Assembly (NCBI GenBank): GCA_023653115.1
Contig: JAMNXO010000004.1
Span: 1-64,000, forward strand
Direction: 5' to 3'
DNA: 64,000 bases
DNA from: Erythrobacter sp.
GTDB lineage: Bacteria > Pseudomonadota > Alphaproteobacteria > Sphingomonadales > Sphingomonadaceae
The position numbers and the translations under genes are program-made. How positions within the stretch are numbered: position 1 is the stretch's first letter; each line of letters starts with the position of its first letter. The notes beneath the pieces are model-generated. The model was given only the letters and a program-made list of their open reading frames with translations, searched no databases and was not told where the DNA came from. This document shows, in pieces, positions 641 through 24,996 of the stretch.

Positions 641-1022
641 CAACCAAGGATGAAACGGCAGGATATCAGTAGTTTAGGGCAGGGCTTGTGTCAGTCCCAC
701 CCTCTCCGCCAAGCGTTTTCATTGCCAGCTTATTTCGTAATGGTCCAAGATTGGCATGGAAATGACGACTCTTCGCACCCCAAATTTCCGATAAGATCAG
801 GTTGCTGGAATATGCTTGCCAAGCTCACTTGTGTCGGCGCCAAATGGGGGCAGACTTGGCGGCGCGGCGATGCTGCAGGACGGAAATTCGCCGTGGCCTG
901 AGACTGCGACCCTTTCGCCCCCTGTGAGTTCGAATCCGAGCGGTTCCGGTCGAGCGATTTCTGTCAGATCAGCCCAGTGCGCAGGCAAAGCCATCAGGCT
1001 GCGCCTTTTGCTAGTTCTCCTC
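641..1022. other. Intergenic stretch, no supported gene
   Basis: The short ORFs in both strands show no family resemblance, and base composition drifts from AT-richer (about 660-800) to the high GC of the downstream cluster. The only items I would mark are the tRNA-Ser-like 3' end at about 700 and, beyond this stretch, the palindrome at 1023-1064. A TTCGAAT heptamer near 930 resembles a tRNA T-loop, but the flanking bases do not pair, so no tRNA is called. Confidence 0.5.
701..716 (+). other. tRNA-Ser 3'-end-like fragment, possible att site
   Basis: CACCCTCTCCGCCA looks like the acceptor-stem 3' end of a bacterial serine tRNA including CCA, but no tRNA body precedes it. Integrative elements that insert into tRNA genes leave such 3' fragments at their far end. 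The resemblance is short and could be chance. Confidence 0.25.
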
Positions 1023-1064
1023 CCCAGCGCCTTTATGCAACACACGTTGCATAAAGGCGCTGGG
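1023..1064. promoter_or_regulatory. 19-bp perfect palindrome, putative TetR-type operator
   Basis: Two 19-base arms (CCCAGCGCCTTTATGCAAC and its exact complement) flank a 4-base spacer ACAC. The inner core TATGCAAC-N4-GTTGCATA recurs at 5579-5598 between the divergent Rieske oxygenase genes. It lies about 75 bases before the first FAD gene, where an operator overlapping the promoter is expected. The repeat is directly visible; binding by either local TetR regulator is inference. Confidence 0.75.
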
Positions 1065-1137
1065 CCCCCAATGGTCTCTTAAGAGGCTCGCGGCCCAAGC
1101 GCCTAACGGAAGCAGGCGCAATGCGGAGGAACAGAAA

Positions 1138-2571
1138 ATGAGCGAGTGGGATCGCACGGTTGATGTGGTGGTCGTCGGGCAAGGCATCGCTGGCGTGTGC
1201 GCCGCGCTCGAAGCACACCGGGCCGGGGCCGAAGTGCTCGTGCTTGAACGTGCCGGCGGCGGCGGCGGTGCCAGCGCCCTATCAGAGGGCATTTTCTATC
1301 TCGGCGGGGGAACCCCGGTGCAGCAGGCCTGCGGGTATGAAGACACCGCGCAGAACCTGTACGATTTCCTCCGCGCCAGCACCTCGCACCCCCATGACGG
1401 AGTGGTCCGCACCTTTGCCGATGGCGCGCGTGATCATTTCGACTGGCTGGAACAGCAGGGCGTCCCGTTCACCCGCACGGCCTTCCCCGGCAAGGTCGTT
1501 TCGGTGCGGACGGCTGACTGCCTGCTCACCACCGGCAACGAAAAGATCTGGCCGTTCAAGAATGCGGCACAGCCCGTGCCCCGTGGCCATCAGGCGCGCA
1601 GCGACGAAGTGAACGGCGGGCTCTCGGCGATGCGGGCGCTGCTGGCTACTTGCGAGGCGGAACGTATCGAAACGGTCTGCAATGCCGCAGTGACCGGGCT
1701 GGAAATCGACGCAGCCGGCCGCGTGGTGGGCGTGAGGGCTACCATCGACGGTGCTCAGCGGCGCATCGGCGCGCGCCGCGGAGTGGTGGTCGCCACCGGG
1801 AGCTTCACCAACAATGCCGACCTCGTGCAAAAGTGGCTCCCGCTCCTCAGCGAGACCTCCTCGCCGCTCGGCGTCCCGTCGAACGACGGTGCGGGCCTGG
1901 GGTTGGCGCAGCAGGCCGGCGCCGCGCTCGCCGCTATGGATGGCGTGATTGCAACCGCATCAATCTACCCGCCCGAAAATCTGATCAAAGGCATCGTTGT
2001 GAATGCCGACGGCGAGCGCTTCGTGGCCGAGGACAGCTATCACGGGCGGCTGGCCGGCTTCATCATGGAGCAGCCGGACCAGAAGGCCTACCTGATCGTC
2101 GACAGCGAGATCTTCGCCTATCCCGAGACTGAGGGGGCAAGGCACGTTCTGATCGACGGCTATGAAACCGTGGCCGAGATGGAGCGGGGCCTGAGATTGC
2201 CCCAGGGCGCGCTCGTCGGCACGCTGGACGAGTACAACCGCGATGCGGCGCAGGGGGTAGACACCCGCTTCCACAAGCAGCCGCCGTGGCTCAAACCGCT
2301 CGATCAGGCACCCTACGCCGCGTTCGACATCTCGTTCGACCGCTCGATCTACCACTACATCACTCTCGGCGGAATCGATACGGATGCCCGGGCGCGGGTG
2401 CTCGATCCCTCGGGCAAGCCGATTGCGGGTCTCTATGCCGCAGGTGCCTGCGCGGCGCATATCACGCGGACCGGCAAGGAATATGCCAGCGGCCTCAGTT
2501 TGGGGCCGGGTTCGTTCTTTGGCCGCGTGGCCGGGCGCGAGGCTGCGGCCAACACCGGCGCGTCGCAATGA
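1138..2571 (+). CDS. FAD-dependent dehydrogenase (FAD_binding_2 / fumarate reductase-like)
   Basis: 477 aa. An N-terminal dinucleotide-binding fold is visible (VVVVGQGIAGVCAALEA, then LVLERA), followed by an ALSEGIFYLGG segment and the C-terminal GLYAAGACAA motif that closes the FAD site in the fumarate reductase/3-ketosteroid dehydrogenase family. Such enzymes introduce or reduce a C=C bond next to a carbonyl. GAGGAACAG before the ATG fits a ribosome binding site. It is the first gene after the palindromic operator and overlaps the next gene by ATGA, so the two are likely translated together. Family is firm; substrate is unknown. No signal peptide, so cytoplasmic. Confidence 0.85.
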   Translation: MSEWDRTVDVVVVGQGIAGVCAALEAHRAGAEVLVLERAGGGGGASALSEGIFYLGGGTPVQQACGYEDTAQNLYDFLRASTSHPHDGVVRTFADGARDHFDWLEQQGVPFTRTAFPGKVVSVRTADCLLTTGNEKIWPFKNAAQPVPRGHQARSDEVNGGLSAMRALLATCEAERIETVCNAAVTGLEIDAAGRVVGVRATIDGAQRRIGARRGVVVATGSFTNNADLVQKWLPLLSETSSPLGVPSNDGAGLGLAQQAGAALAAMDGVIATASIYPPENLIKGIVVNADGERFVAEDSYHGRLAGFIMEQPDQKAYLIVDSEIFAYPETEGARHVLIDGYETVAEMERGLRLPQGALVGTLDEYNRDAAQGVDTRFHKQPPWLKPLDQAPYAAFDISFDRSIYHYITLGGIDTDARARVLDPSGKPIAGLYAAGACAAHITRTGKEYASGLSLGPGSFFGRVAGREAAANTGASQ

Positions 2572-4241
2572 ATGCGAGGGACGAGCACGCACATGGCGGC
2601 GGTTATGATTTCATCGTCGTCGGCAGCGGCGCGGCGGGGCTGGTCGGTGCGATTTCGGCGCGGCTCGCTGGACTGCGCCCTCTTATCATAGAGAAGTCCG
2701 ATCGCTGGGGCGGAACCACCGCGCTTTCGGGCGGCGTGCTGTGGATCCCGGCCAATGACGCCATGGTGGCCGAGGGTGCTGACGACCCCATCCACCGGGC
2801 GCGCACCTATCTTGCCGGCCTGCTCGGCCCAGATGCGAACGAACGCGAGCGTGCCAAAGCCGAGGCGTTTCTCGACAATGCCCCGGCAATGACCCGGATG
2901 CTGGCGGGCGAAGGCCTGCAATGGGTCCGCAACCGCGAGCACCCCGATTACTATCCTGACGTTGATGGAGCGGGGTTCGGTCGCACGCTCGAAGCAGCTC
3001 CGATCGACGGGCATCGGCTGGGTGAGCGGCTTGCGACCTTGCGCGCGGTGGAGCTTGATGTCCCGGCACTGACCAGCGACCAGTTCGGGCCGGCGGTTCT
3101 GACCAAGACCGGCATTCGCCCGGCGATGGTGGGTGCGGGCATCATGCTGCGGCATTACCGCGACAAGCTGCGGGGGCACAAACCGCTGGGGTCGGGCCGC
3201 GGACTGATTGCCTCGCTGATGCTGATCGTCGACCGGCTGGGAATTCCGGTCCGGCTGTCCACTGCGCTGGTCGATCTGACAATGGAGCACGGTTCTGTCA
3301 CAGGTGTCCTGGTGGAGCATGATGGCCGGCGCGAGGCCTTGCCCGCACCCGCTGGCGTCCTGCTCGCGGCCGGCGGTTTCGCCCACAACCCGGCGCTGCG
3401 ACGCGAATTGCAGGGCTTTGCCGCTACGTGGAGCAATGCCTCGCCCGACGATCAGGGCGACGCGCTGGTTGCGGCCCGCGCGATCGGCGCCGATACCGAA
3501 CTGCTCGACGATTGCTGGTGGATGCCGACGCTGGAAGTCGGACCGGACACCCGCGCACTCGCGCTCGGCCTGCGTGCTCTGCCGGGCAGCATCGTCGTCG
3601 ACCATCACGGCAAGCGCTATATGGACGAAGCCCGCTCCTACATGGCGACGGGCCGGATCATGCGCGAACACGGCGCAGCGGAACATCGCCACTGGTTGAT
3701 CATGGACGAACGCTTCCTGTCGCGGCACATCTTTCCGGAACTGTCTCCGCCGAGGGCGCGCGCGGCGATGATGGCGGCCGGCACACTCAAGCGCGGCGAA
3801 TCCATCGCAGAACTGGCGGCTGCGTGCGGTCTTGATCCCGCCAACCTGTCTGCCACGGTGGAGCGTTTCAACGGGTTTGCCCGTGCGGGCGTGGATGACG
3901 ATTTCCACCGCGGAGCCACGGCTTACGATCGTTACTGGGCCGATCCGGCGCATAGGTCCAACCCGAGCCTTGGCCCGATCGAGCGCCCGCCGTTCTGGGC
4001 TGCGGTGCTGCGTCCGGGCGATCTCGGCACCAATGGCGGGGTCAAGACCGATGCAGCGGGCAGGGTTCTGGATGGCGCGGAAAGGCCGATCGAAGGGCTC
4101 TATGCCGCCGGTAACGGCAGCGGCTCGCCATTCCGCCGCAGCTATCCCGGGGCAGGGGCCACCATCGGCGCAGCAGCGACCTATGGCTACATCGCTGCGC
4201 GGCACGCCGCCAAGCGCCGGGTCAACGCCCCGCCTGAATGA
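2568..4241 (+). CDS. 3-ketosteroid-delta1-dehydrogenase-like flavoprotein
   Basis: 557 aa from the ATG inside the ATGA overlap; the ORF track extends it wrongly to 2286. It has an N-terminal FAD motif (FIVVGSGAAGLVGAISARLAG), RWGGTTALSGG, and a C-terminal SYPGAGATIGAAATYGYIAARHAA that matches the KstD signature, including a Tyr and Gly corresponding to the catalytic Tyr and oxyanion Gly of known KstDs. KstD enzymes desaturate ring A of 3-oxosteroids; relatives act on other cyclic or unsaturated ketones. Its pairing with a second FAD protein and two Rieske oxygenases supports a catabolic role, but steroid as substrate is a guess. Confidence 0.8.
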   Translation: MNARDEHAHGGGYDFIVVGSGAAGLVGAISARLAGLRPLIIEKSDRWGGTTALSGGVLWIPANDAMVAEGADDPIHRARTYLAGLLGPDANERERAKAEAFLDNAPAMTRMLAGEGLQWVRNREHPDYYPDVDGAGFGRTLEAAPIDGHRLGERLATLRAVELDVPALTSDQFGPAVLTKTGIRPAMVGAGIMLRHYRDKLRGHKPLGSGRGLIASLMLIVDRLGIPVRLSTALVDLTMEHGSVTGVLVEHDGRREALPAPAGVLLAAGGFAHNPALRRELQGFAATWSNASPDDQGDALVAARAIGADTELLDDCWWMPTLEVGPDTRALALGLRALPGSIVVDHHGKRYMDEARSYMATGRIMREHGAAEHRHWLIMDERFLSRHIFPELSPPRARAAMMAAGTLKRGESIAELAAACGLDPANLSATVERFNGFARAGVDDDFHRGATAYDRYWADPAHRSNPSLGPIERPPFWAAVLRPGDLGTNGGVKTDAAGRVLDGAERPIEGLYAAGNGSGSPFRRSYPGAGATIGAAATYGYIAARHAAKRRVNAPPE

Positions 4242-4250
4242 ACGATGCGA

Positions 4251-5549
4251 CTACTCGGCAGCCTCTTGTGCGCCGGCGTGCAACATTTCCAGACGCGGAT
4301 CGTTAGGGAAGACCCATTCCTCGCCGATCACCTGCTCGACCCGAAGTCCTTCGGGCACATTGTCGAGGCCGATCATCCGGTCGCAATGCTGGTGGAACCA
4401 GTAGATGCGCGATTCCTGATAGCTCAGCGGTACGCTCTTGAAGCCGCGGCTTTCCATCGAGCGCTGGATCGCCTCGCCGAACTGGGTGTCTTCCTGGATC
4501 AGCTTGGCCATCGCCCGCCCGTTGGGTGAGGCCTCGTCGGGCACGGTCCACAAGTCGGGAGCCTCGCCATCGCCCCAGTCGGGGGCCATGGTGATGAGCT
4601 CCAGCCGCGTTGTCGTCAGCGAGGTCGGCCAGAAGATCAGCGGCGGGACGAAATAGTTCGACAGGGGCGAGACCCAGTTCGGGAAGATCGTGTAGCTCTG
4701 GGTATGGGTGCGGCCCAGTTCACCGACCGTTTCGATGGCGGTCCAGTTGGGGGCATTGTCGAGCGCGCGGACATGGGTGCCCTGCAATGTGCGCGGGGGC
4801 GGGGCGAGCATCCGCCCGTGTCCGCCTTTGTAGAGGTGGTTGACGTTGCGCTTGGCGTCCACCAGCGGCGCGACCGTGTCGGGGTGGATGAAGGGGACAT
4901 GGTAGACTTCCATGTTGGCCTCCATCGCCACCTTCCAGTTGCAAGCGAGATCGAAACTGTGCCGCGCGGCGAGGCGCAGTTTGTCGAAGCCGAACTCCTC
5001 CCATTCGTCGGCAATGGGGCCGAGGAAGTCGCGCAGGGTCGGTGCATCATCATCGAAATTGACGAAGATGAGGTTCCCGAACATTTCGCAGCGCACCGGG
5101 ATCAGGCCGCGGGTCGCCATGTCGAGATCGACGAAGTCCTGCCGCTCGGGCACGCCGATCAGCGTGCCGTCGGTCTTGTAGGTCCAGGCGTGATAGGGGC
5201 ACACCAGCCGCCGCGCGCAGCCCTTGTCCTCGGTCACTACCGGAGCGCCGCGGTGGCGGCAGGTGTTGTAGAAGGAGCGCATCACGCCGTCAGTGCCGTG
5301 GACGATGATGATCGGATCGCCGGCGTTGTTCCAGCGCATGAAGCTGCCCGGCTCGGGCACTTCATCGAGATGCGCGGCGAACAGCCACGTCTTGCGGAAG
5401 ATTTGCTCCTGTTCGAGCGCATAGAACGCGGGACTGGTGTAGCGCGCGGCAGGCACATCGGGCAGGCGCGGGAAGCCCGGGGGCGGCGCTTTGCGTTGCC
5501 CCTCCCACTCCATCAGCGCCTTCATTGTCGCGATCGTGCCGGAATCCAT
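4251..5549 (-). CDS. Rieske aromatic-ring-hydroxylating oxygenase, alpha subunit type
   Basis: 432 aa. The Rieske [2Fe-2S] motif is CRHRG (C97, H99) with CPYH (C117, H120). The mononuclear iron site is NMEVYHVPFIH, with H217 and H222. The residue usually Asp between the two metal centres is Glu (E214), as in carnitine monooxygenase CntA-like enzymes. No beta subunit, ferredoxin or reductase gene is nearby, so electrons must come from partners elsewhere. The gene is divergent from the second oxygenase, with the shared palindrome 30 bases before its start. It probably hydroxylates or demethylates a pathway substrate; which one is unknown. Confidence 0.88.
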   Translation of the reverse strand: MDSGTIATMKALMEWEGQRKAPPPGFPRLPDVPAARYTSPAFYALEQEQIFRKTWLFAAHLDEVPEPGSFMRWNNAGDPIIIVHGTDGVMRSFYNTCRHRGAPVVTEDKGCARRLVCPYHAWTYKTDGTLIGVPERQDFVDLDMATRGLIPVRCEMFGNLIFVNFDDDAPTLRDFLGPIADEWEEFGFDKLRLAARHSFDLACNWKVAMEANMEVYHVPFIHPDTVAPLVDAKRNVNHLYKGGHGRMLAPPPRTLQGTHVRALDNAPNWTAIETVGELGRTHTQSYTIFPNWVSPLSNYFVPPLIFWPTSLTTTRLELITMAPDWGDGEAPDLWTVPDEASPNGRAMAKLIQEDTQFGEAIQRSMESRGFKSVPLSYQESRIYWFHQHCDRMIGLDNVPEGLRVEQVIGEEWVFPNDPRLEMLHAGAQEAAE

Positions 5550-5578
5550 CGTGCCTCTCCCTGCGAATCATCGGTTAT

Positions 5579-5598
5579 TATGCAACGTATGTTGCATA
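5579..5598. promoter_or_regulatory. Palindromic operator between divergent Rieske genes
   Basis: TATGCAAC-GTAT-GTTGCATA is a perfect 8-bp inverted repeat with a 4-base spacer, the same core and spacing as the palindrome at 1023-1064. It sits 30 bases from the minus-strand start (5549) and 59 from the plus-strand start (5657), so one bound dimer could control both promoters. Regulator identity is inferred from the two TetR genes in the cluster. Confidence 0.75.
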
Positions 5599-5656: not shown

Positions 5657-6925
5657 ATGCAAGTGATGGACCTTCGGAAGGGCGCGGCTGCCAGTGCGGA
5701 GCGGGTGAGCGCCGCTGCTCGTGGCGCGCTCGAACAACACGCTGCCGCATTGCTTCGGCACACTGCGGACGGCACTTTCCCGTTGGCGGCGGACGTCATG
5801 GCGCTGAATGCCGATCACTATACTTCGGCCGAGCGGTTCGCAGCCGAGAAGCGGCGCATCTTCCAGCGGGTTCCACTGGTGCTCGCCGCCTCCTGCGAAC
5901 TTCCCAAGGCCGGAGATTACAAGGCGCTCGAAGTCGCGGGCATCCCCGTGCTCCTGGTCAGAGATCGGCAAGGCGAGGCGCACGCGCTCCTGAACGCCTG
6001 CACGCATCGCGGTGCGGCGGTGGCAAGTGGTTGCGGCACAGCGGCACGTTTTACCTGCCCTTACCATGGCTGGACCTTCGCTCAGGATGGTGCGCTCATC
6101 GGTGTCGCCAGTTCGGCCGACTTCGGCGCTGTCGACAAGGCGATGCTGGCGATGAAGCGCTTTCCTGTCGCAGAGCGCGCCGGACTGATCTGGGCGATCC
6201 TTGATCCTGCCAGCCCGCACGACCCTGCAGCCATGCTTAGCGGGATCGACGAACTCGTTGCAGGGTTCGGCCTTGCCGACTGGACGCTGATTGAAAGCCG
6301 CACGCTCCATGGCCCCAACTGGAAACTCGCCTTCGACGCGCATCTTGAGTTCTACCATGTGCCGGTGCTGCACCGGGAGACATTCGGCCCCGAACGTTCG
6401 AACCGCGCCTTCTATTTTGCGCAAGGCCCGCACCAGCGGGTGATCGCGCCGCAAGGCCGCCCCGGGACGTCAGCGCCGGACGATCTCTATGCCCTCGGCC
6501 GACTGCCTGCGGCACATGAGCCGATCGATCCGCTGTTGATGGGCGAGTGGATCCTCTTCCCCGGCACCTCGATCAACACCTTCTACATTGGCGGCATTCG
6601 CTGTGTGCTGGTTTCAATCGTTGTGCCCGGCGCCGAGGTCGGCACCTCGACGACCACCCAGACCTTCCTTGCCGAAACGGCCCCCGATGATGCGACCCGC
6701 GCGGCGATGGGCGAGATGTGCGCCTTCCTTGCGCATGTTGTGGGAGATGAAGACCTGCCCACCTCAGCCTTCCAGCAAAAGGTTATGGCGACCGGTCTCG
6801 TCGGCGAAGTGCGCTTTGGCCGCAACGAAGGCGGCTTGCAGCACTTCCACACCTGGCTCGAACGTGTGATCACGGCGGACGATGCCACTTTGGCGGAACT
6901 TTTGGGGACTTCATGCCAGCTGTAA
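5657..6925 (+). CDS. Rieske oxygenase, alpha subunit type
   Basis: 422 aa. I chose the ATG at 5657 because GGGAGAGGG lies just upstream; the ORF-track start at 5639 would lie before that site. Rieske ligands are CTHRG (C115, H117) and CPYHGW (C134, H137). The catalytic iron region reads DAHLEFYHVPVLH (H234, H239) with Glu (E231) instead of the common bridging Asp. It is clearly divergent in sequence from the minus-strand oxygenase, so the two likely do different steps. The end overlaps the TetR gene by 13 bases, linking enzyme and regulator in one transcript. Confidence 0.87.
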   Translation: MQVMDLRKGAAASAERVSAAARGALEQHAAALLRHTADGTFPLAADVMALNADHYTSAERFAAEKRRIFQRVPLVLAASCELPKAGDYKALEVAGIPVLLVRDRQGEAHALLNACTHRGAAVASGCGTAARFTCPYHGWTFAQDGALIGVASSADFGAVDKAMLAMKRFPVAERAGLIWAILDPASPHDPAAMLSGIDELVAGFGLADWTLIESRTLHGPNWKLAFDAHLEFYHVPVLHRETFGPERSNRAFYFAQGPHQRVIAPQGRPGTSAPDDLYALGRLPAAHEPIDPLLMGEWILFPGTSINTFYIGGIRCVLVSIVVPGAEVGTSTTTQTFLAETAPDDATRAAMGEMCAFLAHVVGDEDLPTSAFQQKVMATGLVGEVRFGRNEGGLQHFHTWLERVITADDATLAELLGTSCQL

Positions 6926-7518
6926 TCGATCACGATGCCCGCCGCACTGCGCTCGCTGAGGTCGCTGCCGATCTGGTGGCAAGCGGCGGCGCCGAGGCCG
7001 CAACCGTGCGTGCGGTGGCCGCTGCGGCCGGTTTCAGCACCAAGGCCGTGACGCATTACTTCCCGGACAAGCGCGCATTGATGCTGCTGACCTATCGCCA
7101 CGCGGCCTTGAGCTCGCAGGCCCGCACCGATGCCTCCCAGCCTGACAGCGGCGGCGACATCAGGGCGTTGCTCCACGCCCTGCTGCCAACCGACCCCAAG
7201 GTGGAGCGCGACTGGCGGGTGTGGTTCTCTTTCTGGGGGATTGCTATCGCCGACCCCGAGTTCGCCGCCGAACAACGCGAGCGGATGCGCGACTTTGTTA
7301 GCCAGATCGCTGCCATCCTCGCGGCCGATCCGGGCTGCGCGCACCTGACTGCGGAGCAACGTCCCGTCATCGCCAGCGCGCTGCTTGCCGCGCTGTTCGG
7401 CACCGTCACCCAGGCGATTTTCGATCCCGAAACATGGCCCGCCGCGCGGCAGGCTGAAGCGATTGACGCGGCGTTGACGCGGATTGCCGGTCTGGTTTTC
7501 GATCACAAGGAGGGATGA
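6913..7518 (+). CDS. TetR/AcrR-family transcriptional regulator
   Basis: 201 aa. The N-terminal helix-turn-helix is clear (ATVRAVAAAAGFSTKAVTHYFPDKRALMLLTY), followed by an all-helical ligand-binding domain resembling BetI-type regulators. It starts inside the end of the Rieske gene (13-base overlap) and is followed after 3 bases by the SDR gene. TetR proteins bind short palindromes and release them on binding a pathway ligand. The TATGCAAC-N4-GTTGCATA sites at 1023 and 5579 are natural candidates for its operator, which would make it self-regulating through the 5579 site. Confidence 0.88.
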   Translation: MPAVIDHDARRTALAEVAADLVASGGAEAATVRAVAAAAGFSTKAVTHYFPDKRALMLLTYRHAALSSQARTDASQPDSGGDIRALLHALLPTDPKVERDWRVWFSFWGIAIADPEFAAEQRERMRDFVSQIAAILAADPGCAHLTAEQRPVIASALLAALFGTVTQAIFDPETWPAARQAEAIDAALTRIAGLVFDHKEG

Positions 7519-7521: not shown

Positions 7522-8277
7522 ATGAGCGGACGTTACGAAGGCAAGACCGTGGCCGTCACCGGCGCGGGCGAGGGCATGGGCCGGGCGATGGCGCTGGCCT
7601 TTGCGCGCGAGGGCGCAGCGGTGATGGCTTGCGACGTCAACGCCGCTGGGCTCGAGGCGACGGCAGCGCAGCTCGGTTCGGCACCCGGCAGCATCGCAAC
7701 GATGATCGTCGATGTGCGTGACGAGGCTGCGGTCGCCACCTTTGCCGGCCGAGCTGCCGAACCTACCGGCGCACTCGATGTGATGATCTGCAATGCCGGG
7801 GTGAAGGGCAACTGGGCCCCGCTCGCCGAACAGCCGCGCGAACAGCTCGATCTGGTCATCGACATCAATCTGAAGGGTGTGGTGCTGTGCATGAAGCACG
7901 CGCTCGCCCACATGATCCCGGCGCGCTCGGGCGTGATCATCAACCTTGCATCGGTCCAGAGCTTCCGCGTCGGCTTCCCGGGGGCGGCGTTCTATTCGGC
8001 GAGCAAGGCGGCGGTCGTGGCGCTGACCCGTGCGGCCGCGCTGGAGAACGGGCAGTTCGGCATCCGCGCTGTCGGCATCGCACCGGGCCCGATCGACACG
8101 CCAATGCTGCGCAGCGCGGGCGGCGACTGGCCGCCCCCGATCATCAATGACGTGCCGCTGGGGCGCATCGGCCACGTCGATGATATCGCCAATGCGGCCC
8201 TGTGGCTTGCCTCCCGTGAGGCGAACTACATCAGCGGTGCCACTCTGACGATCGACGGGGGCTGGCTCGCTCCTTGA
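7522..8277 (+). CDS. Short-chain dehydrogenase/reductase (SDR)
   Basis: 251 aa, typical for classical SDRs. The cofactor motif is TGAGEGMG near residue 14, followed by DV at the end of the acidic strand, NAG near residue 90, and the catalytic Ser (LASVQS) with YSASK. IDGGW at the C-terminus is the usual closing motif. Acidic residues after the Rossmann strand (CDVN) suggest NAD rather than NADP. It oxidises an alcohol or reduces a ketone, most likely an intermediate made by the neighbouring oxygenases. Last gene of the plus-strand operon; GGGATGAGGG before the ATG provides the ribosome site. Confidence 0.88.
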   Translation: MSGRYEGKTVAVTGAGEGMGRAMALAFAREGAAVMACDVNAAGLEATAAQLGSAPGSIATMIVDVRDEAAVATFAGRAAEPTGALDVMICNAGVKGNWAPLAEQPREQLDLVIDINLKGVVLCMKHALAHMIPARSGVIINLASVQSFRVGFPGAAFYSASKAAVVALTRAAALENGQFGIRAVGIAPGPIDTPMLRSAGGDWPPPIINDVPLGRIGHVDDIANAALWLASREANYISGATLTIDGGWLAP

Positions 8278-8543: not shown

Positions 8544-9761
8544 TCAGAGCATGAAAGGCTGTAGCGCCATTATCGCATATGATCGAAATTCATCCTTCGA
8601 TGAACCCTCATAGGTCACACGGCGGCCGATCCCGCGGATGATCGCTGAAAACGCAGCAACCAGCGCCGCCGGCGGCACGAGACCGCCCAGCATCTGCTGC
8701 AACGCCCATGTCCCGCTCGGATCATCCATCGAACGGATCAGGCCGCGCAGGGCAGCATATTCGGGGCCGTTATAGATCGCGCATTCGATCTCGTCATAGG
8801 CGTGCAGAACCGGCTGTTGCCCGCCGAGAATGGCATCGAGCAGGTGGCCAAGCATCACATCGGGTGGGAAGCTTTGCGCCAGCAGTGCAGCCTGATCGCC
8901 GCCCAGCGCCTCGCGCTGGTAGAGGCTGTGTAGTGCCGCGTGGAGCAAACCGCTCTTGGTGCCGAAGACATGGATTACCTTGCCCAGCGTCACTCCGGCC
9001 GCGGCCGCGACGGCGCGGAAAGTCACCCCGGCATAGCCCTGTTCGGCCAGCAGCAACCCCGCAGTGGCGGCCATCCGTGCCGCCAGTGCGCTGTCCGGCA
9101 CCGCGGGCGCATCATAGCACCGGCGGGCGAGGGCGCTGTGGACGGGGCGGACGCGGTCAGGCGCAAGGCGGCCCTCGCGCAGCCAGATAATCAGCGCGGC
9201 CACCGTCTCCTCGAGCAGCGCCCGGTCGAGCGCCGGATTCCACACCAGCAGATGCCGCGCCGTCTCCCCGGCAGCAAAGGCAGCCAGCGTTCCGGCCGCC
9301 TCGCCAAGGCCAATCAGGGCGGCAAGCCTGTGCCAAAAGCCGTCCCACGCTGCCTGCCATGCGGCATTGGGGGCATGGCGCCAGGCCATCGCAAGGCGGC
9401 GCTGGCCCTGCGTCCAGTCTGCGATCACCGTCGCAATCACCGAAGCCTGCAGCGCTGCCGGCAGTGGCTCCTCGGCGAGCGCGGCGAGCGTGGTGATCTG
9501 CTGCGCCATCCAGTCCTGCGCCGCCGCGAGAGCCACCTCCGAGGTGCTGACATACAAGTGTTCCATATCACCGAAGTGATAGTGGATCGCTGATTGTGCT
9601 GCCCCGGCCCTCTGAACCAGCGCACGCACCGAGGTCTCGTCAGCCGGGGCTTCCGCCCAAACCGCCAGTAATGCGTCAATCAAGCGACTCTTTGTCGATT
9701 TTCCGACAGTTTCTTGATCATCATGTGATGTGTCTATGACAATAACTCGGCCAGCATTCAT
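8544..9761 (-). CDS. Tandem double TetR-domain regulator
   Basis: 405 aa, about twice the usual TetR length. The first helix-turn-helix is SVRALVQRAGAAQSAIHYHFGDMEHLY (about residues 40-65), followed by a helical domain. A second complete TetR N-domain follows (LLLAEQGYAGVTFRAVAAAAGVTLGKVIHVFGTKSGLL, about residues 235-275) with its own helical domain. I chose the ATG at 9761 because GCGAGGAAATCC precedes it; 9785 is possible. It is divergent from the TonB receptor gene and probably controls that promoter. A fused regulator could act as a pseudo-dimer on asymmetric sites. Family certain; target inferred. Confidence 0.82.
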   Translation of the reverse strand: MNAGRVIVIDTSHDDQETVGKSTKSRLIDALLAVWAEAPADETSVRALVQRAGAAQSAIHYHFGDMEHLYVSTSEVALAAAQDWMAQQITTLAALAEEPLPAALQASVIATVIADWTQGQRRLAMAWRHAPNAAWQAAWDGFWHRLAALIGLGEAAGTLAAFAAGETARHLLVWNPALDRALLEETVAALIIWLREGRLAPDRVRPVHSALARRCYDAPAVPDSALAARMAATAGLLLAEQGYAGVTFRAVAAAAGVTLGKVIHVFGTKSGLLHAALHSLYQREALGGDQAALLAQSFPPDVMLGHLLDAILGGQQPVLHAYDEIECAIYNGPEYAALRGLIRSMDDPSGTWALQQMLGGLVPPAALVAAFSAIIRGIGRRVTYEGSSKDEFRSYAIMALQPFML

Positions 9762-9799
9762 GGATTTCCTCGCATTTTCCTGCACGGACGAGCGCTTTT

Positions 9800-9869: not shown

Positions 9870-12470
9870 ATGTCTTATGCCACCAAGTCTTTCCGCGTCG
9901 CGCTGCTGAGCTCAGGTGCGCTCGGCGCGCTGTTCCTGGCGCTGCCCGCCGCCGCGCAGGACGGTGCCGCTACCGGGGTGGATGCCGCGGCAGCAGGCGA
10001 GGCTAGCAACGTCATCATCGTCACCGGCTCGATCCGCGATTCGCTTGAGAACGCGACCGCGACCAAGCGCGCCGCGCTCAACGTCACCGACGTCGCCACC
10101 GCGGACTCGGTGGGCCGATTCCCGGACGAAAACATCGCTGCCGCACTCGCGCGCTTGCCGGGCGTGGCGGTGCAGCTCGACCAGGGCCAGGCGCGCTACA
10201 TCCAGGTGCGCGGCGCGCCCAATCGCTGGACCTCGGTGAGCATCGATGGCCTGCCGCAAACCGGCACCGACGAAGGCGGCGGCGAGCGCGCCTTCCGCTT
10301 TGACGCGGTGCCGGCGGTGCTGCTGCAGCAGTTGGTAGTGAACAAGTCGCTCACCCCGGACATCACCGCCGAGGCGATCACCGCGCTGGTCGACCTGCAG
10401 ACCTTCTCGCCGCTCGATGACGGCAAGACCGGCTTCAGCGTGACCGGTGATGCGGGCTATGGCTTCATGGACCTCGGCAGCGGCCAACAGCGGCAGGGAT
10501 CGCTGCGCCTGTCGTGGACCAATGACCGGATCGGCTTCGCCATCGGTGGATCGCATTATCTGCGCGAGCAGGTCACCGACAACCGCGAGGCCGGTTACGA
10601 CGCCAACGGCATTCCGATCGATATCGACATCCGCAATTACGAACTCACCCGTGAAAACAACGGCCTGTTCGGTGCCTTCGAAGTGCGCGCAAGCGAGGAC
10701 CTGAAGTTCTTCGTCAACGGCATCTTCACCGAGTTCCGCGACCGCGAGGAACGCCACGCTTACGAGATCGAAATCGGTGAAGCCGCCGCGCGCGGCACCC
10801 GAGGCTTACTGACCGGCAGCCTGGACAATGTCTCGATCACGACCAACTACAATGACGGGCTCTATCTCAATCAGAACTACATCGGTTCGGCTGGGTTCGA
10901 TTACGACACGGCGGAAGGCGGCATTAAGGGCATTGTCGGCTATACCCGCACTGAAAATACCACCGATCTGCCGCTGATCCAGTCGTCGATTCGCGGGATC
11001 AGCGTCGATTATGATCGCTCGGCCGATCCGCGCTTCCCCACGGTGCGGCTGTTCCGCACCGTCAACACCGGCGGCGTGTTCTCGCGCGGGGCCGAGCTGA
11101 CGTCGATCCCGATCACCGAACAGAACCTGCCGCGCACCGTGTTGATTCCGATTGTGCAGGGCGTGACGTCCGAGGCGTGGTCGGGCAAGCTCGATGCGTG
11201 GAAGCAATTGGACGATCTCAAGATCAGCGCCGGGCTTTATGCCACCACCCGCGACATCGTTGGCAACAACATCGGCATCGGCGGTGTGGTGCCGCTGGCG
11301 GCGACGGGGTTCAACCCCAACGGCTTCGCCACCGACCGGCCTTGGGACACTCAGTTCCCGCTCGGCGTGGGGATCAACTATGTCGATACCCGCGCGATGA
11401 ACCGCGAATTGCAGGCCGCGCTTGGCCGCGCCGGGATCAATCCGGCAAACTTCGTACTGCCAACATCATTCTATGATCAGCAGGAACGCATCATCGCCGG
11501 TTACGCAATGGCCCAGTGGGATGCCGGGCCGCTGCAACTGGTCGCGGGTGTGCGCGCCGAGCAATACGAGATCGACAATGCCGGCACCGTGCTGGTCGGC
11601 GCGGTGCAGACACCGCTGGCCGTGGAGCAGGACTTCTTCGACCTCTTCCCGAGCCTGAACATCCGTTTTGAGGCCAGCGATAATGTCGTGCTGCGCTTTG
11701 GCGGTCAGCGCGGGGTCTCGCGCCCCGCCTATGCCGCGATCCGCGTCGGTGCCTCGATCAGCGACACGGCGGCCACCATCAATGGCGGCAACCCCTTCCT
11801 CACCCCCGAATATACCTGGGGTGTGGACGCGGCGATCGAATACTACTTCGCCAGCAACGGCATCGCCTCGATCAGCGGCTTCCATCGTTGGGTCGAGGAT
11901 GTGCTCTACCAGAGCCAGCAACGGGTCGGCTCGGACCTTTACGACAGTGGCCTGATCGACCGGTCGAACTACCTGCTGGGTTCAACCTTCAACGGCGAGG
12001 AAGGCACGCTTTACGGGGTCGAGTTCAACGTCGAGACGCAGTTCGATTTCCTTCCTGGCGCGCTGGCCGGCCTCGGGGTGCAGGGCAACCTGACGCTGCT
12101 GGGGGGCGATTTCGAGGCGCGCAATGCTGCCGGGCAGCTGCAAACTTTCGCCTTTCAGGGCCTGTCGGACACGGTGATGAACGCCTCGGTGTTCTATGAA
12201 TATGCCGGGTTGAGCCTGCGGGTTGCCTATCAGAAGCGCACAGACTTCCTCGACACCATTGGAGGCCTGGGTTCGGGTGAGTTCCGGCAGGGCTTCGAAA
12301 ACCTCGATGTCACAGCCCGCTATGCGCTGACGCCCAACATCACTCTGTTCGCGGATCTCGCCAATCTGACCGACGAGACCTATGTCGCCTACGAAGGCAT
12401 GCCGGCCACTCCGTCCGAGGTGGAGCGCATTGGCGAGCGTTACCTGTTCGGCGTGCGCTTCAACTTCTGA
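9870..12470 (+). CDS. TonB-dependent outer-membrane receptor
   Basis: 866 aa. A signal peptide (LLSSGALGALFLALPAAAQ) is followed by a TonB-box-like stretch (NVIIVTGS) and a plug domain with DSVGRFPDENIAAALARLPGVAV, a signature of the Xanthomonas-Caulobacter group of receptors (TIGR01782-like). The C-terminus ends in ERYLFGVRFNF, the aromatic-ending strand of outer-membrane barrels. It imports a large or scarce substrate using energy from TonB-ExbBD. It is divergent from the double-TetR regulator and 20 bases upstream of an exported SurE-like nucleotidase, which suggests uptake of a nucleotide or phosphorylated compound, or co-regulation with the upstream catabolic genes. Confidence 0.9.
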   Translation: MSYATKSFRVALLSSGALGALFLALPAAAQDGAATGVDAAAAGEASNVIIVTGSIRDSLENATATKRAALNVTDVATADSVGRFPDENIAAALARLPGVAVQLDQGQARYIQVRGAPNRWTSVSIDGLPQTGTDEGGGERAFRFDAVPAVLLQQLVVNKSLTPDITAEAITALVDLQTFSPLDDGKTGFSVTGDAGYGFMDLGSGQQRQGSLRLSWTNDRIGFAIGGSHYLREQVTDNREAGYDANGIPIDIDIRNYELTRENNGLFGAFEVRASEDLKFFVNGIFTEFRDREERHAYEIEIGEAAARGTRGLLTGSLDNVSITTNYNDGLYLNQNYIGSAGFDYDTAEGGIKGIVGYTRTENTTDLPLIQSSIRGISVDYDRSADPRFPTVRLFRTVNTGGVFSRGAELTSIPITEQNLPRTVLIPIVQGVTSEAWSGKLDAWKQLDDLKISAGLYATTRDIVGNNIGIGGVVPLAATGFNPNGFATDRPWDTQFPLGVGINYVDTRAMNRELQAALGRAGINPANFVLPTSFYDQQERIIAGYAMAQWDAGPLQLVAGVRAEQYEIDNAGTVLVGAVQTPLAVEQDFFDLFPSLNIRFEASDNVVLRFGGQRGVSRPAYAAIRVGASISDTAATINGGNPFLTPEYTWGVDAAIEYYFASNGIASISGFHRWVEDVLYQSQQRVGSDLYDSGLIDRSNYLLGSTFNGEEGTLYGVEFNVETQFDFLPGALAGLGVQGNLTLLGGDFEARNAAGQLQTFAFQGLSDTVMNASVFYEYAGLSLRVAYQKRTDFLDTIGGLGSGEFRQGFENLDVTARYALTPNITLFADLANLTDETYVAYEGMPATPSEVERIGERYLFGVRFNF

Positions 12471-13489: not shown

Positions 13490-13657
13490 ACATCGAGAAC
13501 CTGACCACGCCTGTGTGAGTATGCGTCTGCCCCGATTCAAGACAACCCTTCCGCGCCCAACACAAACAGCTTGCGGTAGATGCCCGTTAAGTTAACATCT
13601 CCATGTTCTTGCCAGCAAAAACCTTCGCAGCCGCCCCCGCGAGTTAAGGACGTTCCC
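13490..13657. other. Short intergenic region before the signalling island
   Basis: Contains a GTTAAGTTAAC element near 13586 and the probable promoter for the FHA-phosphatase gene. No terminator with a T-run is obvious after the SurE-like gene. The upstream part of the ORF-track reading (13580-13657) is probably not translated. Confidence 0.35.
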
Positions 13658-14773
13658 TTGGCCGAAAGCGAGCAGACCCAGTTTGTAACGCGAGCCGATG
13701 CGGTCAACCATATCAAGGGGGATCGCTTGCATTGCCTTGAACTGCTGAACGGTGGCGAGGTCGAGAGCCGGCATATCGTTGGCCCGCTCGGGCTTAAGGT
13801 TGGTCGGACGGCCCCGGCCGATGTCGTGCTTGCCGATACCGAGGTGTCGCGTTCGCATTGCCTGATCGCATTGAAAGGCGAAGATCTTTACGTCTCGGAT
13901 CTCAACTCCACTAACGGCACCTTCATCGATGGCACGAGGGTAAGCAGCGTAGTGCCACTTCCTGTCGGTTCGATCCTGCAGGTCGGTAATCGCGCCTTCA
14001 AGCACGAGTGGCGCACGCGTGCGGAGATTGCCCACCTCAACGAGTCCGATCACGAACTTGAGAAGGCCGCATCCTACGTCAGGGCCCTGCTGCCGCCAAA
14101 AATTGCCGAAGGCCCGATCAAGGTCGACTGGATCTACAAACCCTCGGCCAAGCTCGGCGGAGATGCCTTCGGGATCGGACAGCTGGGCGAGAACCTTTAC
14201 GTCGCCTATCTGGTCGATGTTGCAGGGCACGGCACGGGCGCGGCAATGCACGCGGTCGCGATCATGAACCAGCTGCGCCAACGGTCTCTGCCCAATACCG
14301 AGATGGCCCGGCCCGAACTGGTTCTCAGCACCCTGAACGAACTGTTCCAGATGGAAGATCACGCCGGGCTCTATTTCACCATCTGGTACGGGGTTTATGA
14401 TGCTCGAACGCGCCGGCTGGAATTTGCCAGCGGTGGCCATCACCCCGCCTATCTTGTTCCTGCCGACCGTTCCGAGGCGATTCCGCTGCACACCCGCAAT
14501 CCGATCATTGGAGCCATGCCGGCGATGATGTTCCGTCAGGGCGGCATCACCGTGCCCCAAGGGGCGTCGATCTATCTGTTCAGCGATGGCGTGTTCGAAA
14601 TCATCGACACCGACGAGAGGCAATGGGACATCACGGACTTGATCGAACTGATCGTCGATCCGAGCGCCTCGGGCAAGGACGAGCCGCAGCGGCTCTACGA
14701 CACCGTATGCCAGCGCGCCGAGCCGAGCACGATGGACGACGATTTTTCGCTGATGATCGTAACATTCGAATAG
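13658..14773 (+). CDS. FHA-domain SpoIIE/RsbU-type protein phosphatase
   Basis: 371 aa from a TTG start preceded by TTAAGGA; the ORF-track ATG at 13580 gives an implausible Pro/Gln-rich leader. The N-terminal half is an FHA domain (LKVGRTAPADVVLADTEVSRSHCLI, DLNSTNGTFIDG), which binds phosphothreonine. The C-terminal half is a PPM/SpoIIE phosphatase (GGDAFGIGQLGENLYVAYLVDVAGHGTGAA; DDDFSLMIV with metal-binding Asp). RsbU-type enzymes dephosphorylate STAS proteins, and a STAS gene follows. The FHA domain suggests recruitment by a phosphorylated partner, plausibly the Ser/Thr kinase encoded nearby. Confidence 0.88.
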   Translation: MAESEQTQFVTRADAVNHIKGDRLHCLELLNGGEVESRHIVGPLGLKVGRTAPADVVLADTEVSRSHCLIALKGEDLYVSDLNSTNGTFIDGTRVSSVVPLPVGSILQVGNRAFKHEWRTRAEIAHLNESDHELEKAASYVRALLPPKIAEGPIKVDWIYKPSAKLGGDAFGIGQLGENLYVAYLVDVAGHGTGAAMHAVAIMNQLRQRSLPNTEMARPELVLSTLNELFQMEDHAGLYFTIWYGVYDARTRRLEFASGGHHPAYLVPADRSEAIPLHTRNPIIGAMPAMMFRQGGITVPQGASIYLFSDGVFEIIDTDERQWDITDLIELIVDPSASGKDEPQRLYDTVCQRAEPSTMDDDFSLMIVTFE

Positions 14774-14791
14774 CGTGTCGAAGGGGGCAAA

Positions 14792-15130
14792 ATGACTTTG
14801 GTGATCACGGATCTATCGGGCGTAACCAAGGCGGAACTGTCGGGGCGGCTCGATACCGCAAACGTCAACGAGCTTGAGCTGAAGTTTTCTGCCGGGGTCA
14901 TGCCCAAATCCCAGCCGACAATTGTCGATCTCACGCAAGTGACGTTCATCGCTTCGCTCGGCATCAGAATGCTGCTGACTGCCGCGCGTGGCCTTAGCCG
15001 GAGAGGCGCTAAGCTCGTTATGTTCGGCGCTAATCCAGCGGTCATTGAGATCTTCGAAATGAGCGCGCTTTCGGACATCATCCCGGTCGTCCCGACCGAA
15101 GCGGATGCCATCGCGGCGGTCAGCGGCTGA
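14792..15130 (+). CDS. STAS-domain anti-sigma-factor antagonist-like protein
   Basis: 112 aa, a single STAS domain. The conserved strand-loop-helix that carries the phosphorylatable Ser reads VTFIASLGIRMLLTAARGL, with Ser in the IASLG position expected for RsbV/SpoIIAA. It lies 18 bases after the FHA-phosphatase gene and 33 before the HATPase gene. In partner-switching systems the unphosphorylated STAS protein binds the kinase and frees its target; the phosphatase resets it. Role by analogy is strong; the final target is unknown. Confidence 0.87.
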   Translation: MTLVITDLSGVTKAELSGRLDTANVNELELKFSAGVMPKSQPTIVDLTQVTFIASLGIRMLLTAARGLSRRGAKLVMFGANPAVIEIFEMSALSDIIPVVPTEADAIAAVSG

Positions 15131-15163
15131 CGACAGGCCCCGCGCGATTCAGGCGAACCGCTC

Positions 15164-15568
15164 ATGGACAAGGGAATTTCTCTGGAGCTGCCCAAAGCGC
15201 TGACCTCCGTCGAGGAAGGGCGGCTTGCGGTGTTGGCCTATCTCGAACCCTTCGGGGTTGCCAGCGCTGTCATCAACCGGCTCGAGGTGGTCCTCGAGGA
15301 ACTGGTGAGCAATGTTGTGCGTCACGCGCAGGATGCGACCCACGTCCGACTTTCGGCCGCAATGTTCGAGAACGGGGTGTGTCTGTGCGTGGAGGATGAC
15401 GGGGCCGCCTTTGACCCGCTCGCCTCCGCAGGGCCGCAGCCTTTCGACACGCTGGAAGACGCGCATATCGGGGGCCTCGGCATCCCGCTGGTGAAGCGGC
15501 TGTCGCGATCACTCGCTTACGAGCGGGCCGGTAACGTCAACCTTGTGCGTGCGGTGATTGCGACGTGA
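15164..15568 (+). CDS. RsbW/SpoIIAB-like HATPase serine kinase
   Basis: 134 aa. A GHKL ATPase fold is seen: N-box VVLEELVSNVVRHAQ, CVEDDGAAFDPL (G1 box, DDG) and GGLGIPLVKRLS (G2 box). This is the size and layout of anti-sigma serine kinases, which phosphorylate the STAS partner and may hold a sigma factor. No sigma-factor gene is adjacent, so it may act on a distant sigma factor or another protein. It completes a phosphatase-STAS-kinase set in one operon. Confidence 0.87.
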   Translation: MDKGISLELPKALTSVEEGRLAVLAYLEPFGVASAVINRLEVVLEELVSNVVRHAQDATHVRLSAAMFENGVCLCVEDDGAAFDPLASAGPQPFDTLEDAHIGGLGIPLVKRLSRSLAYERAGNVNLVRAVIAT

Positions 15569-15576
15569 TGTCGTGA

Positions 15577-15591
15577 GGCGGCAGCGCCGCC
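15577..15591. terminator. Short hairpin between convergent genes
   Basis: GGCGGC-AGC-GCCGCC forms a 6-bp GC stem in the 25-base gap between the HATPase stop and the kinase stop. There is no clear T-run on either side, so it is a weak candidate for a shared terminator. Confidence 0.35.
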
Positions 15592-15593
15592 GG

Positions 15594-17951
15594 TCACTTG
15601 AGCGAGGCCTTCGAATCCGCCAGCATGGTATTCAGATAGCCCAGCGTCTGGCGTGCCTTTGCGACTGACTGCCGCGCCTCCGCGTCCGACCTGATGCCCT
15701 TCATCGACCGCGACAGCGTATCGAGATAGGTCTGATAACTCTTTGCCGACTGGGCGTTTTGCTGCCTGATGCGGAACTTCTCCTGCTCATCCTCGGCGGC
15801 GTTGGCATCGGGGCGCGAGCGATCGCCCAGACGGATGACGTCGCGCGCCACACCGTTGGCCTTTTTGACGACCGACGCAAATTCCCTGAGCGTCGCAGCA
15901 GACACTGCCGCTTCCGGTGCGGCACCCTTGGCAGAATCCGCTGGCACAGCCTGCTCCAGCACCGGTGCACCTGCGGAAGGCTTGGGCACAGCTTGCTGCG
16001 TCTGCGCTGCATCCGACGCGCCAGCCTTCGGTTGAAGATCGCTACCGGCCGGCCCGGCGCGATAGGCTTCTGCCAGCTTCGCGGCATAGGCCCGCGCATC
16101 GGCAAGGGCGTTTCGGGCCAGCACGAGCGCTTCGCTCCCGGTCGCGGCCTGCCCGATCGCAGTCATTGCGCTTTCCACCCCGCTGCGCCGCTGCTGCAGG
16201 GCTGCGGCGATTCGACGCTGACCTGCACTCGCGCCCCGGGCCGCTTCGGTTCGCCGCGGATCGGTCCATGGTATCTGCCGGCTTGCCCGCCGCGCCTTTG
16301 CCGCGACATCGGCGGCCGTGGCTTTGGTGAAAGCGAGGAGCGCCGGTTTGGCGACCGCATCGATCTCCGCCTGCGCAGCCGCAGCTGTGCCGGAACCCGC
16401 TTCGAGAGCCGTGATCCGCCTCGCAGCCGCAGCCAAGGGATCGGAGGCGCTCGCAGGCAGGCCCGCACGCTTCGCCTCCTCGGCGAGGCTTCCTATCGCG
16501 CTGCCGAGCGCGGCCGCCTCGGGGGGCTGATCCGACGGCGTGGTTGGGAAGAGGCTATCCGCCGCGGCGGCTGCTTCCTGCGGTGTTGTGGAGGTCGATG
16601 ACGCTGGGGCGCTGCTCATCACATACCAGGTGCCGCCCGCGAGCACTATGGCGACAGCGGCCATGCCGGCATAAATCATGGGGGAGCCGGTCTTCGGCTT
16701 GGCCGCAGAACCGGACGCCTCATTGCCCGTCTTGGGAGACGCAGAGACCGCGGATGGGGGAGTAACCGGCGAAGAACTGTCCGCGCCTTGCGCTGCATCC
16801 TTCGCGTTGCCGTCATTGTTCTCCGGCACCGCGTCCGGTAGTGGTCCGGCAATCGGCTTCTTGGCTCTGGTGTTCATGCCCGCAAGCGTGAATTCGGCCT
16901 CGCTCGGGCTATCCGGTACTGCGGTTTCAATCCGCGCCCCGGTCTCAAAGCCTGGAGGGGGAGGCGCAACAGGCACAATCCGTTCGGACGATGCCGCGAA
17001 GCTGCCGATCCTTGTTTTGTCGTCCTCGTCGTCATCCCGAACTTGGGTCGTTTCGGCGGCACCGTCGGGCCGGTCAAACAGGGCGAGCCATTCCGAGATC
17101 GATCGCGGGCGTTCATCGGGCCGGATCGCCATGGCCGCGTCCACCGCAGCGAGGAACGACCTGCTGAACCCCGGCCAGTCACCCTCGCTCAGCGGCTTGC
17201 TGGCACTGCCGTGCAGCCGTTCGAGGACTTCGGCCGGCTTTTCCCCGGCAACGCATTCGTAGAGAACCACGCCGAGCGCGTAGATGTCGGTCCACGGACC
17301 CTGCTCGTAGGTCTTCACATATTGTTCGATCGCGGCATAGGGCGGGGTGTGGAACGTCACCGAAGTGCTTGTCGCGTCTCCGGATTCGAACCGGGCCGAA
17401 CCGAAATCGATCAAGACCGGCCGGTTGTCATGCCCAACGAGAATGTTCGGCGGCTTGATGTCGCGGTGGAGCACGCCCACGCGGTGGGCCCGTTCGAGCC
17501 CTTCAGCGATCGGGCGGATCAGCGCTGAGAGACTCGCTTCGTTGAAGCGCCGGCCTTCCTTGAGAAGCCTGGAAAGCGAGACCCCATCCTCGAAATCCAT
17601 GACCATGTAAGCCGAGCCGTGAATCTCGAACAGGCTGCGGACGCTGACGATGTTCGGGTGCCGGGAGGGGGTGGACAGGTTCCAGAGAAGCTTGGCCTCT
17701 TCGACGAACTTCTTGAGGCCCAGCGCGTGGACTTCCTCCGCGTCAGAGTCGACCGGCACAATTGTCGCATCGTCCTGCCGTTCGCTGATCGCGCTCGGGA
17801 AATACTCCTTGATGGCGACCAGCTCGTCAAAATAGATCCCGCGCGCCTTGTAGACGATACCGAAACCGCCCACGCCAAGAACATCTTCGAGCCGCCATTC
17901 CCGCAGCACAGTACCCGGCGGGAGCGCCTTATTGCTGTAGACCTTGCTCAT
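15594..17951 (-). CDS. Membrane Ser/Thr protein kinase (PknB-like)
   Basis: 785 aa from the ATG at 17951; the ORF-track extension to 18440 overlaps the divergent PP2C gene. An N-terminal eukaryotic-type kinase domain (about 20-280) shows GVGGFG, VAIKEYF (ATP Lys), VLHRDIKPPNILV and LIDFGSARF. A Pro/Ala-rich linker leads to one membrane span near residue 425 (MIYAGMAAVAIVLAGGTWYVM), then a long Ala-rich, probably coiled-coil C-terminal region in the periplasm. No PASTA repeats are visible. It is divergent from a PP2C phosphatase and convergent with the partner-switch operon; it could phosphorylate the ligand of the FHA domain. Confidence 0.9.
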   Translation of the reverse strand: MSKVYSNKALPPGTVLREWRLEDVLGVGGFGIVYKARGIYFDELVAIKEYFPSAISERQDDATIVPVDSDAEEVHALGLKKFVEEAKLLWNLSTPSRHPNIVSVRSLFEIHGSAYMVMDFEDGVSLSRLLKEGRRFNEASLSALIRPIAEGLERAHRVGVLHRDIKPPNILVGHDNRPVLIDFGSARFESGDATSTSVTFHTPPYAAIEQYVKTYEQGPWTDIYALGVVLYECVAGEKPAEVLERLHGSASKPLSEGDWPGFSRSFLAAVDAAMAIRPDERPRSISEWLALFDRPDGAAETTQVRDDDEDDKTRIGSFAASSERIVPVAPPPPGFETGARIETAVPDSPSEAEFTLAGMNTRAKKPIAGPLPDAVPENNDGNAKDAAQGADSSSPVTPPSAVSASPKTGNEASGSAAKPKTGSPMIYAGMAAVAIVLAGGTWYVMSSAPASSTSTTPQEAAAAADSLFPTTPSDQPPEAAALGSAIGSLAEEAKRAGLPASASDPLAAAARRITALEAGSGTAAAAQAEIDAVAKPALLAFTKATAADVAAKARRASRQIPWTDPRRTEAARGASAGQRRIAAALQQRRSGVESAMTAIGQAATGSEALVLARNALADARAYAAKLAEAYRAGPAGSDLQPKAGASDAAQTQQAVPKPSAGAPVLEQAVPADSAKGAAPEAAVSAATLREFASVVKKANGVARDVIRLGDRSRPDANAAEDEQEKFRIRQQNAQSAKSYQTYLDTLSRSMKGIRSDAEARQSVAKARQTLGYLNTMLADSKASLK

Positions 17952-18048
17952 TGCTTGGAGACCACCAGAAGGGTAACATTTGTAAACTAATTTTGCACGG
18001 CATGCGGATACTTGCCAGTAAAATCCGAGAGCCGCTACGGGAGTGTTC

Positions 18049-18768
18049 ATGACGCCATTCGAGTGCACCTCACGCACGCACGTGGGGCACAAGCGCAAGC
18101 TGAACGAGGATGCGCTGCTGTGCTCTCCGGCTGATCGCATCTGGGTGGTCGCCGACGGGATGGGCGGCCATGAGGCCGGCGAGGTCGCGAGCCAAATGGT
18201 CATCGCAGAGCTGGCCGGGCTAACGCCGGCTGACAGCCTGACGATGCGGGTCGGAAAGGCGATTGGCGCGCTCGAAGCCGTGAACGCCGCACTGATCGAG
18301 TTGGCGCTGTCGATAGGCAAGGACAGAACGATCGGATCGACGGTCGTCGGCCTGATCACTGAGGGTTCCGAACTCGGCTGTTTCTGGGCCGGAGACAGCC
18401 GCGCCCTGCGCTTGCGAGGCGGCGAAGTTACGCAGATCACGCGCGATCACAGCCTTGTGCAAGAGCTCGTCGAGGCGGGAATGCTCGAGGCCGAACGGGC
18501 CGACGATCATCCCAATGCCAACATCCTCACCCGTGCGGTCGGCGCGGCGAAATCGTTGCAGGTTGACCACGTCAGAGGCACTGTCTTGGCAGGCGATATC
18601 TATCTTCTGGCGAGCGACGGCCTCACCCGTCTCGTCAAGCCGGAAGAAATGGTCCCGATCTTGTCAGGTCCGGAGCTCGAAGAGGCGGCTGACCGGATGC
18701 TGGATCTCGCCCTCTCCCGGGGTGCGTCCGATAACGTATCCTTCGTGATTGTCCGGTTCGTCTCTTAG
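18049..18768 (+). CDS. PP2C-family Ser/Thr protein phosphatase
   Basis: 239 aa from the ATG at 18049 (ACGGGAG upstream); the track uses a GTG two codons earlier. PPM motifs are complete: RKLNEDA, WVVADGMGGHEAGEVAS (metal Asp), GCFWAGDSRALRLR, ITRDHS, LASDGLTRLV and GASDNVSFVIV. This is the usual soluble PppA/Stp type that reverses eukaryotic-like kinases. The head-to-head arrangement with the kinase gene is the standard kinase/phosphatase pairing. Confidence 0.92.
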   Translation: MTPFECTSRTHVGHKRKLNEDALLCSPADRIWVVADGMGGHEAGEVASQMVIAELAGLTPADSLTMRVGKAIGALEAVNAALIELALSIGKDRTIGSTVVGLITEGSELGCFWAGDSRALRLRGGEVTQITRDHSLVQELVEAGMLEAERADDHPNANILTRAVGAAKSLQVDHVRGTVLAGDIYLLASDGLTRLVKPEEMVPILSGPELEEAADRMLDLALSRGASDNVSFVIVRFVS

Positions 18769-23001: not shown

Positions 23002-23198
23002 GTCGGGGTGCCCCTGCTTGTGTTGTTGTAGCAGCGGCCGCCTAGGCTCCCGATGTTGCAGTTCCGCCAAACTTCGGTTGCATAAAGGGGACGGAAAAAT
23101 GACTGTTCTGCGGCGTTGCAAAGGCGTCACAGTATGCCTGCCGGCTTAGGCCTTTGCCAAAGCCGCCGCGGGCAGGGTTGCAAACCCAAGCCTTTTTC

Positions 23199-23944: not shown

Positions 23945-23948
<4 letters not shown>
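23199..23948 (-). CDS. arsH: ArsH NADPH-dependent FMN reductase / organoarsenical oxidase
   Basis: 249 aa, the usual length. The flavodoxin-like FMN-binding loop is [20 protein letters not shown], and the ArsH-specific stretches [21 protein letters not shown] and [21 protein letters not shown] are present. ArsH oxidises trivalent organoarsenicals and reduces flavins. It is the last gene of the ars operon and overlaps acr3 by 4 bases. Confidence 0.93.

Positions 23949-24996
<1,048 letters not shown>

Follow-up and report, generated by a model that had tools for sequence, protein, structure and literature searches.

Which regulator reads a rare palindrome that stands before several oxidative catabolic genes, and which of these genes does it join into one regulon? 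A motif scan of the whole stretch of DNA analysed here (64,000 nt, from here on the window) finds two exact copies of TATGCAAC-N4-GTTGCATA, at 1034-1053 (site 1) and 5579-5598 (site 2), and the chance expectation for this palindrome is 0.04 matches in the window, even when up to three mismatches are allowed. Both copies are intergenic and have the identical core and spacing that an earlier note on this DNA had described. The genome scan proposed in that note was run on the whole assembly (2.4 Mb, 86% complete): the two copies are the sole matches with up to two mismatches, and one further match with three mismatches is present on contig C58. With its two 8-bp half-sites, 4 bp apart, the palindrome has a layout that suits a TetR dimer.

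Site 1 ends 84 bp upstream of the ATG of FADa (1138), a flavoprotein gene that overlaps with the following gene FADb. Site 2 is placed between two divergent Rieske genes, 29 bp before the ATG of Rieske A (5549, minus strand) and 58 bp before the ATG of Rieske B (5657), and consists of the core with its 8-bp arms alone. At site 1, the core TATGCAACN4GTTGCATA is the centre of a longer perfect inverted repeat with arms at 1023-1041 and 1046-1064; this extended repeat falls within the region that the earlier note had covered and is absent from its text. A scan for the sigma-70 consensus detected no promoter at site 1 or site 2, so that any overlap of the sites with a promoter is putative. The features of the locus are listed in Table 1; the start of FADb was set by alignment to a relative and the start of Rieske B was chosen by conservation.

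Table 1. Features of the catabolic locus (positions in the window)
Feature	Positions	Strand	Remarks
Conserved block, possible promoter -35 region	996-1016	+	directly upstream of operator 1; identical in relative, flanks diverged
Operator 1, extended: CCCAGCGCCTTTATGCAAC-ACAC-GTTGCATAAAGGCGCTGGG	1023-1064		perfect inverted repeat of two 19-bp arms spaced by 4 bp; kept before the FADa ortholog of genome G401 with one paired arm change
FADa, FAD_binding_2 flavoprotein, PRK07121.1-3 subfamily	1138-2571	+	above cut-off
FADb, FAD_binding_2, 3-ketosteroid-delta1-dehydrogenase-like (KstD-like)	2568-4241	+	below equivalog cut-off
Rieske A, ring-hydroxylating oxygenase alpha subunit	4251-5549	-	divergent from Rieske B
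Operator 2: TATGCAACGTATGTTGCATA	5579-5598		divergent Rieske A/Rieske B promoter region; same position in 7/7 orthologous operons
Rieske B, ring-hydroxylating oxygenase	5657-6925	+	heads TetR operon
TetR 6913, TetR family, BetI-type C-terminal domain	6913-7518	+	overlaps Rieske B end; proposed binder of both operators
SDR oxidoreductase	7522-8277	+	gene 3 of Rieske B-TetR-SDR operon

The gene directly behind Rieske B encodes a TetR family protein (TetR 6913), and the conservation of site 2 was followed together with this gene. In a survey of 401 genomes of the family, the site was present at up to one mismatch in seven genomes, and the reversed pattern, used as control, in five. Besides the genome studied here, two genomes of the family encode a TetR ortholog that is 70% or more identical, and each carries the site some 1.3 kb ahead of the TetR start; the remaining four matches do not exceed what the reversed control yields. 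A protein scan of 84,980 GTDB species genomes identified nine orthologs of TetR 6913 (70-94%), and in seven of these nine genomes the Rieske B-TetR operon is assembled (in one case split across two contigs). In each of the seven assembled operons, the site (zero to two mismatches) precedes Rieske B by 40-58 bp; these loci were fetched through TetR, so the linkage between operon and site is conditional on TetR. The consensus is TRTGCAAC-NNNT-GTTGCAYA, with each outlying position broken in at most one locus: the half-sites hardly vary in sequence, in contrast to the flanks, which are variable except among close relatives. Relatives that bear the site include the culturable Novosphingobium huizhouense c7 and N. 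sediminis NBRC 106119. The two exceptions are L043 (TetR gene at 92%) and L048 (partial match, 75%): both lack an adjacent Rieske B and a site, and they look like relocated or decayed copies. At L043, the ortholog (10001-10785) is accompanied by a truncated SDR and no operator is found genome-wide; this locus is an apparent operon remnant. Homologs of Rieske B of about 50% have no full site at up to three mismatches (13 loci).

The FADa promoter of the nearest relative, Porphyrobacter sp. MCMED-G16, is the main independent test of the link between TetR and site, in one close relative and by sequence comparison. In this genome, the FADa and FADb orthologs (94.5% and 92% identical, respectively) are preceded by a second, exact site, at a distance of 18 kb from the Rieske site. 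The two units are separated there by about 14 kb with other genes, including mannitol dehydrogenase, UxaC, GntR, a glycoside hydrolase, a transporter and a TonB receptor. As the site is kept before FADa despite this rearrangement, it appears to go with the target promoter and not with the neighbourhood, judged from this one close relative. The 19-bp arms are kept too, except for one position at which both arms have changed (CCCAG..CTGGG to CTCAG..CTGAG), and the upstream block, which we consider a possible -35 region, is identical; the rest of the FADa leader has diverged. No site was found at up to three mismatches for 19 more distant FADa homologs (46-62%) from genomes without a close TetR ortholog.

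The long arms at the FADa promoter also allow readings at the level of RNA. The repeat could serve twice, as TetR operator in the DNA and as leader hairpin in the transcript, which we regard as improbable; if true, the hairpin would be a second layer of control on the flavoprotein pair. About as improbable is a role of site 1 chiefly in RNA, as a hairpin of 19-bp stem and 4-nt loop in the leader of FADa that acts post-transcriptionally, and not as a DNA operator. The predicted fold is indeed very stable (-63.6 kcal/mol for 126 nt, z -7.2), as is that of the relative (-56.7, z -5.6), and the single arm change between the two species is a paired one. However, the core of site 1 equals operator 2 in sequence and spacing, and the fold of operator 2 is ordinary (z -0.1); moreover, no terminator-like T run is seen and the hairpin may fall outside the transcript. 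Since site 2 has the same core without a stable fold, reading site 1 as an operator is enough.

TetR 6913 has the domains expected of such a regulator: the TetR_N helix-turn-helix scores 39.5 bits (Pfam cut-off 24), the TetR_C_6 ligand and dimer domain scores 64.5 bits (cut-off 27), and the best sequence matches in the PDB are TetR family chains. It is below the equivalog cut-offs of both BetI (52 bits versus 201.3) and KstR (20.2 bits versus 280), and choline is not indicated as its ligand because the BetI score is far too low. The helix-turn-helix region GFSTKAVTHYF is invariant among the orthologs of TetR 6913. Novosphingobium huizhouense has a paralogous TetR of 49% identity (L085, ~6444) with an almost identical recognition helix (GFSTTAVTHYF; helix-turn-helix FSTTAVTHYFANKR versus FSTKAVTHYFPDKR), and the region between its gene and a divergent KstD-like gene carries a site with two mismatches, TGTGCAACAGCTGTTGTATA. 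In three loci whose TetRs are 34-40% identical (L024 698, L025 1441 and L014 1349), CAAC-N4-GTTG dyads, among them TTTACAACatgtGTTGTAAT and TTTGCAACaatgGTTGGAAA, lie 40-132 bp upstream of the TetR start codon. The full 16-base motif was not found at up to two mismatches near distant TetRs (28-41%), and once at three mismatches; a plasmid search for TetR 6913 returned only homologs below 60%. From the invariant helix-turn-helix, the site of the 49% paralog and the three dyads we infer that the CAAC-N4-GTTG core is tied to this TetR clade.

That the palindrome belongs to a different family of regulators, such as IclR, is highly improbable. The palindrome does resemble IclR group 2 sites (TGRAACA-N1-2-TGTTYCA), and PheR, an IclR repressor from Sphingobium, needs GCAACG and has a footprint that contains ATGCAAC (PMC13273656). 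Against this, the footprint of PheR differs from the N4-spaced dyad, and the site tracks TetR 6913 and its paralog in differing gene settings. An IclR operator was also rejected on distribution: an IclR protein does not occur wherever the site is conserved, as no IclR_C protein was detected in two of the site-bearing genomes (G403 and G407) and none is near the site in the others. The second candidate of the earlier note, a tandem double TetR (8544-9785), is encoded nearby and has two TetR_N domains, but it is extremely unlikely to regulate the palindromes: no homolog of it at E <= 1e-15 was detected in the nine further genomes that encode a TetR 6913 ortholog (the site is present in seven of these), and it is divergent from the TonB receptor at 9870, its more likely target. 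This receptor (9870-12470) is of the TonB-Xanth-Caul subfamily; the double TetR gene is on the minus strand.

TetR 6913 is thus the likely regulator, because the site is conserved with its ortholog in 7/7 operons and before FADa in the nearest relative. Phylogenetic footprinting gives strong support to what the earlier note had proposed, a shared operator under one regulator with TetR 6913 as candidate. Copies, rarity and conservation of the site, with the TetR gene and at two target promoters, are direct readings of the sequence; DNA binding by TetR 6913, repression rather than activation, and an inducer are what we infer. TetR 6913 would very probably act as a homodimeric repressor on the operator TRTGCAAC-N4-GTTGCAYA, with itself and three units under its control and with release by a compound of the pathway. 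Without inducer, TetR 6913 on operator 2 would block both Rieske A and Rieske B-TetR-SDR, and it would therefore repress itself, while TetR 6913 on operator 1 would block FADa-FADb. Binding of the inducer, probably a substrate or intermediate of the pathway and perhaps steroid-like or alicyclic, would release all three units together.

The earlier note had also counted three transcripts under one regulator. Three units are probable, with Rieske A, which is divergent from Rieske B, as the third in place of the TonB receptor gene at 23001 to which the note had assigned a half-site. The half-site itself is real: a single GTTGCATA is present at 23077-23084. Membership of the receptor in the regulon does not follow from it and was rejected: the half-site has no dyad partner, four orthologs of the receptor (53%) lack it in their upstream DNA, and the gene comes after an arsenic-resistance operon (arsR-arsC-acr3-arsH). 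The 8-mer is at chance level, with 0.71 expected in the window, and, apart from the two arms of site 1, the 12-mer GTTGCATAAAGG at this position has no further copy in the genome; some weak binding to the single half-site is conceivable. The region 20659-25886 (minus strand) encodes ArsR, ArsC, ACR3 and ArsH, with ArsH and ACR3 above the curated cut-off, followed by the TonB-dependent receptor, which may belong to the arsenic cluster.

In the relatives, the neighbouring genes encode KstD-like flavoproteins, OYE/BaiCD-like reductases, P450s and SDRs, a chemistry that would fit an alicyclic or steroid-like substrate. The locus is most likely a local TetR regulon of an oxidative catabolic cluster, perhaps for a steroid-like compound, as far as gene content can tell. 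Elsewhere in the window (13580-18440), a SpoIIE phosphatase with FHA domain is followed by a STAS-domain protein, with a large Ser/Thr kinase gene nearby (15594-18440, minus strand); this is a signalling set of the partner-switching type.

No description of a TetR with the operator TRTGCAAC-N4-GTTGCAYA was found in the literature searched: a search on TetR-Rieske operators of sphingomonads returned no matching operator, and a search by the letters of the motif returned primer matches only. The proposed pair of operator and regulator is new, and the kind of regulation is ordinary local TetR control. What is gained for this TetR clade of sphingomonads, which seems to be uncharacterised and is recognisable by GFSTKAVTHYF, is a specific operator sequence. 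In addition, two Rieske oxygenases, an SDR and two FAD dehydrogenases are placed in one pathway, which would aid the search for its substrate, and one close relative provides an example of an operator that stays with its target gene through rearrangement.

In its TetR_N and TetR_C_6 domains, in the position of its gene inside the proposed target operon and in its proposed palindromic operator at a divergent promoter, TetR 6913 is like the autoregulated catabolic TetR repressors with BetI-type C-terminal domain (PF13977). KstR, the TetR regulator of cholesterol catabolism in actinobacteria, controls KstD-like and oxygenase genes and has an operator that differs from TRTGCAAC-N4-GTTGCAYA. The comparison of TetR 6913 with KstR is one of how they work, with KstD-like and oxygenase genes as targets of KstR and as proposed targets of TetR 6913. 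Among sphingomonads, the TetR protein EGO55_16300 of the bile-salt cluster bsd I of Caenibius tardaugens, a steroid catabolic cluster, was proposed to bind palindromes (PMC12882949), as is TetR 6913; compared by palindromes alone, those of bsd I (ATAGGGCCATTG and GCATGCGGGATGC) are unrelated to the site described here. PheR, which represses phenanthrene catabolism in Sphingobium sp. SHPJ-2, is likewise a sphingomonad repressor of a Rieske dioxygenase operon with ATGCAAC in its footprint (PMC13273656), but it is of another protein family, its footprint is not an N4-spaced dyad, and two of the genomes that bear our site have no detected IclR protein.
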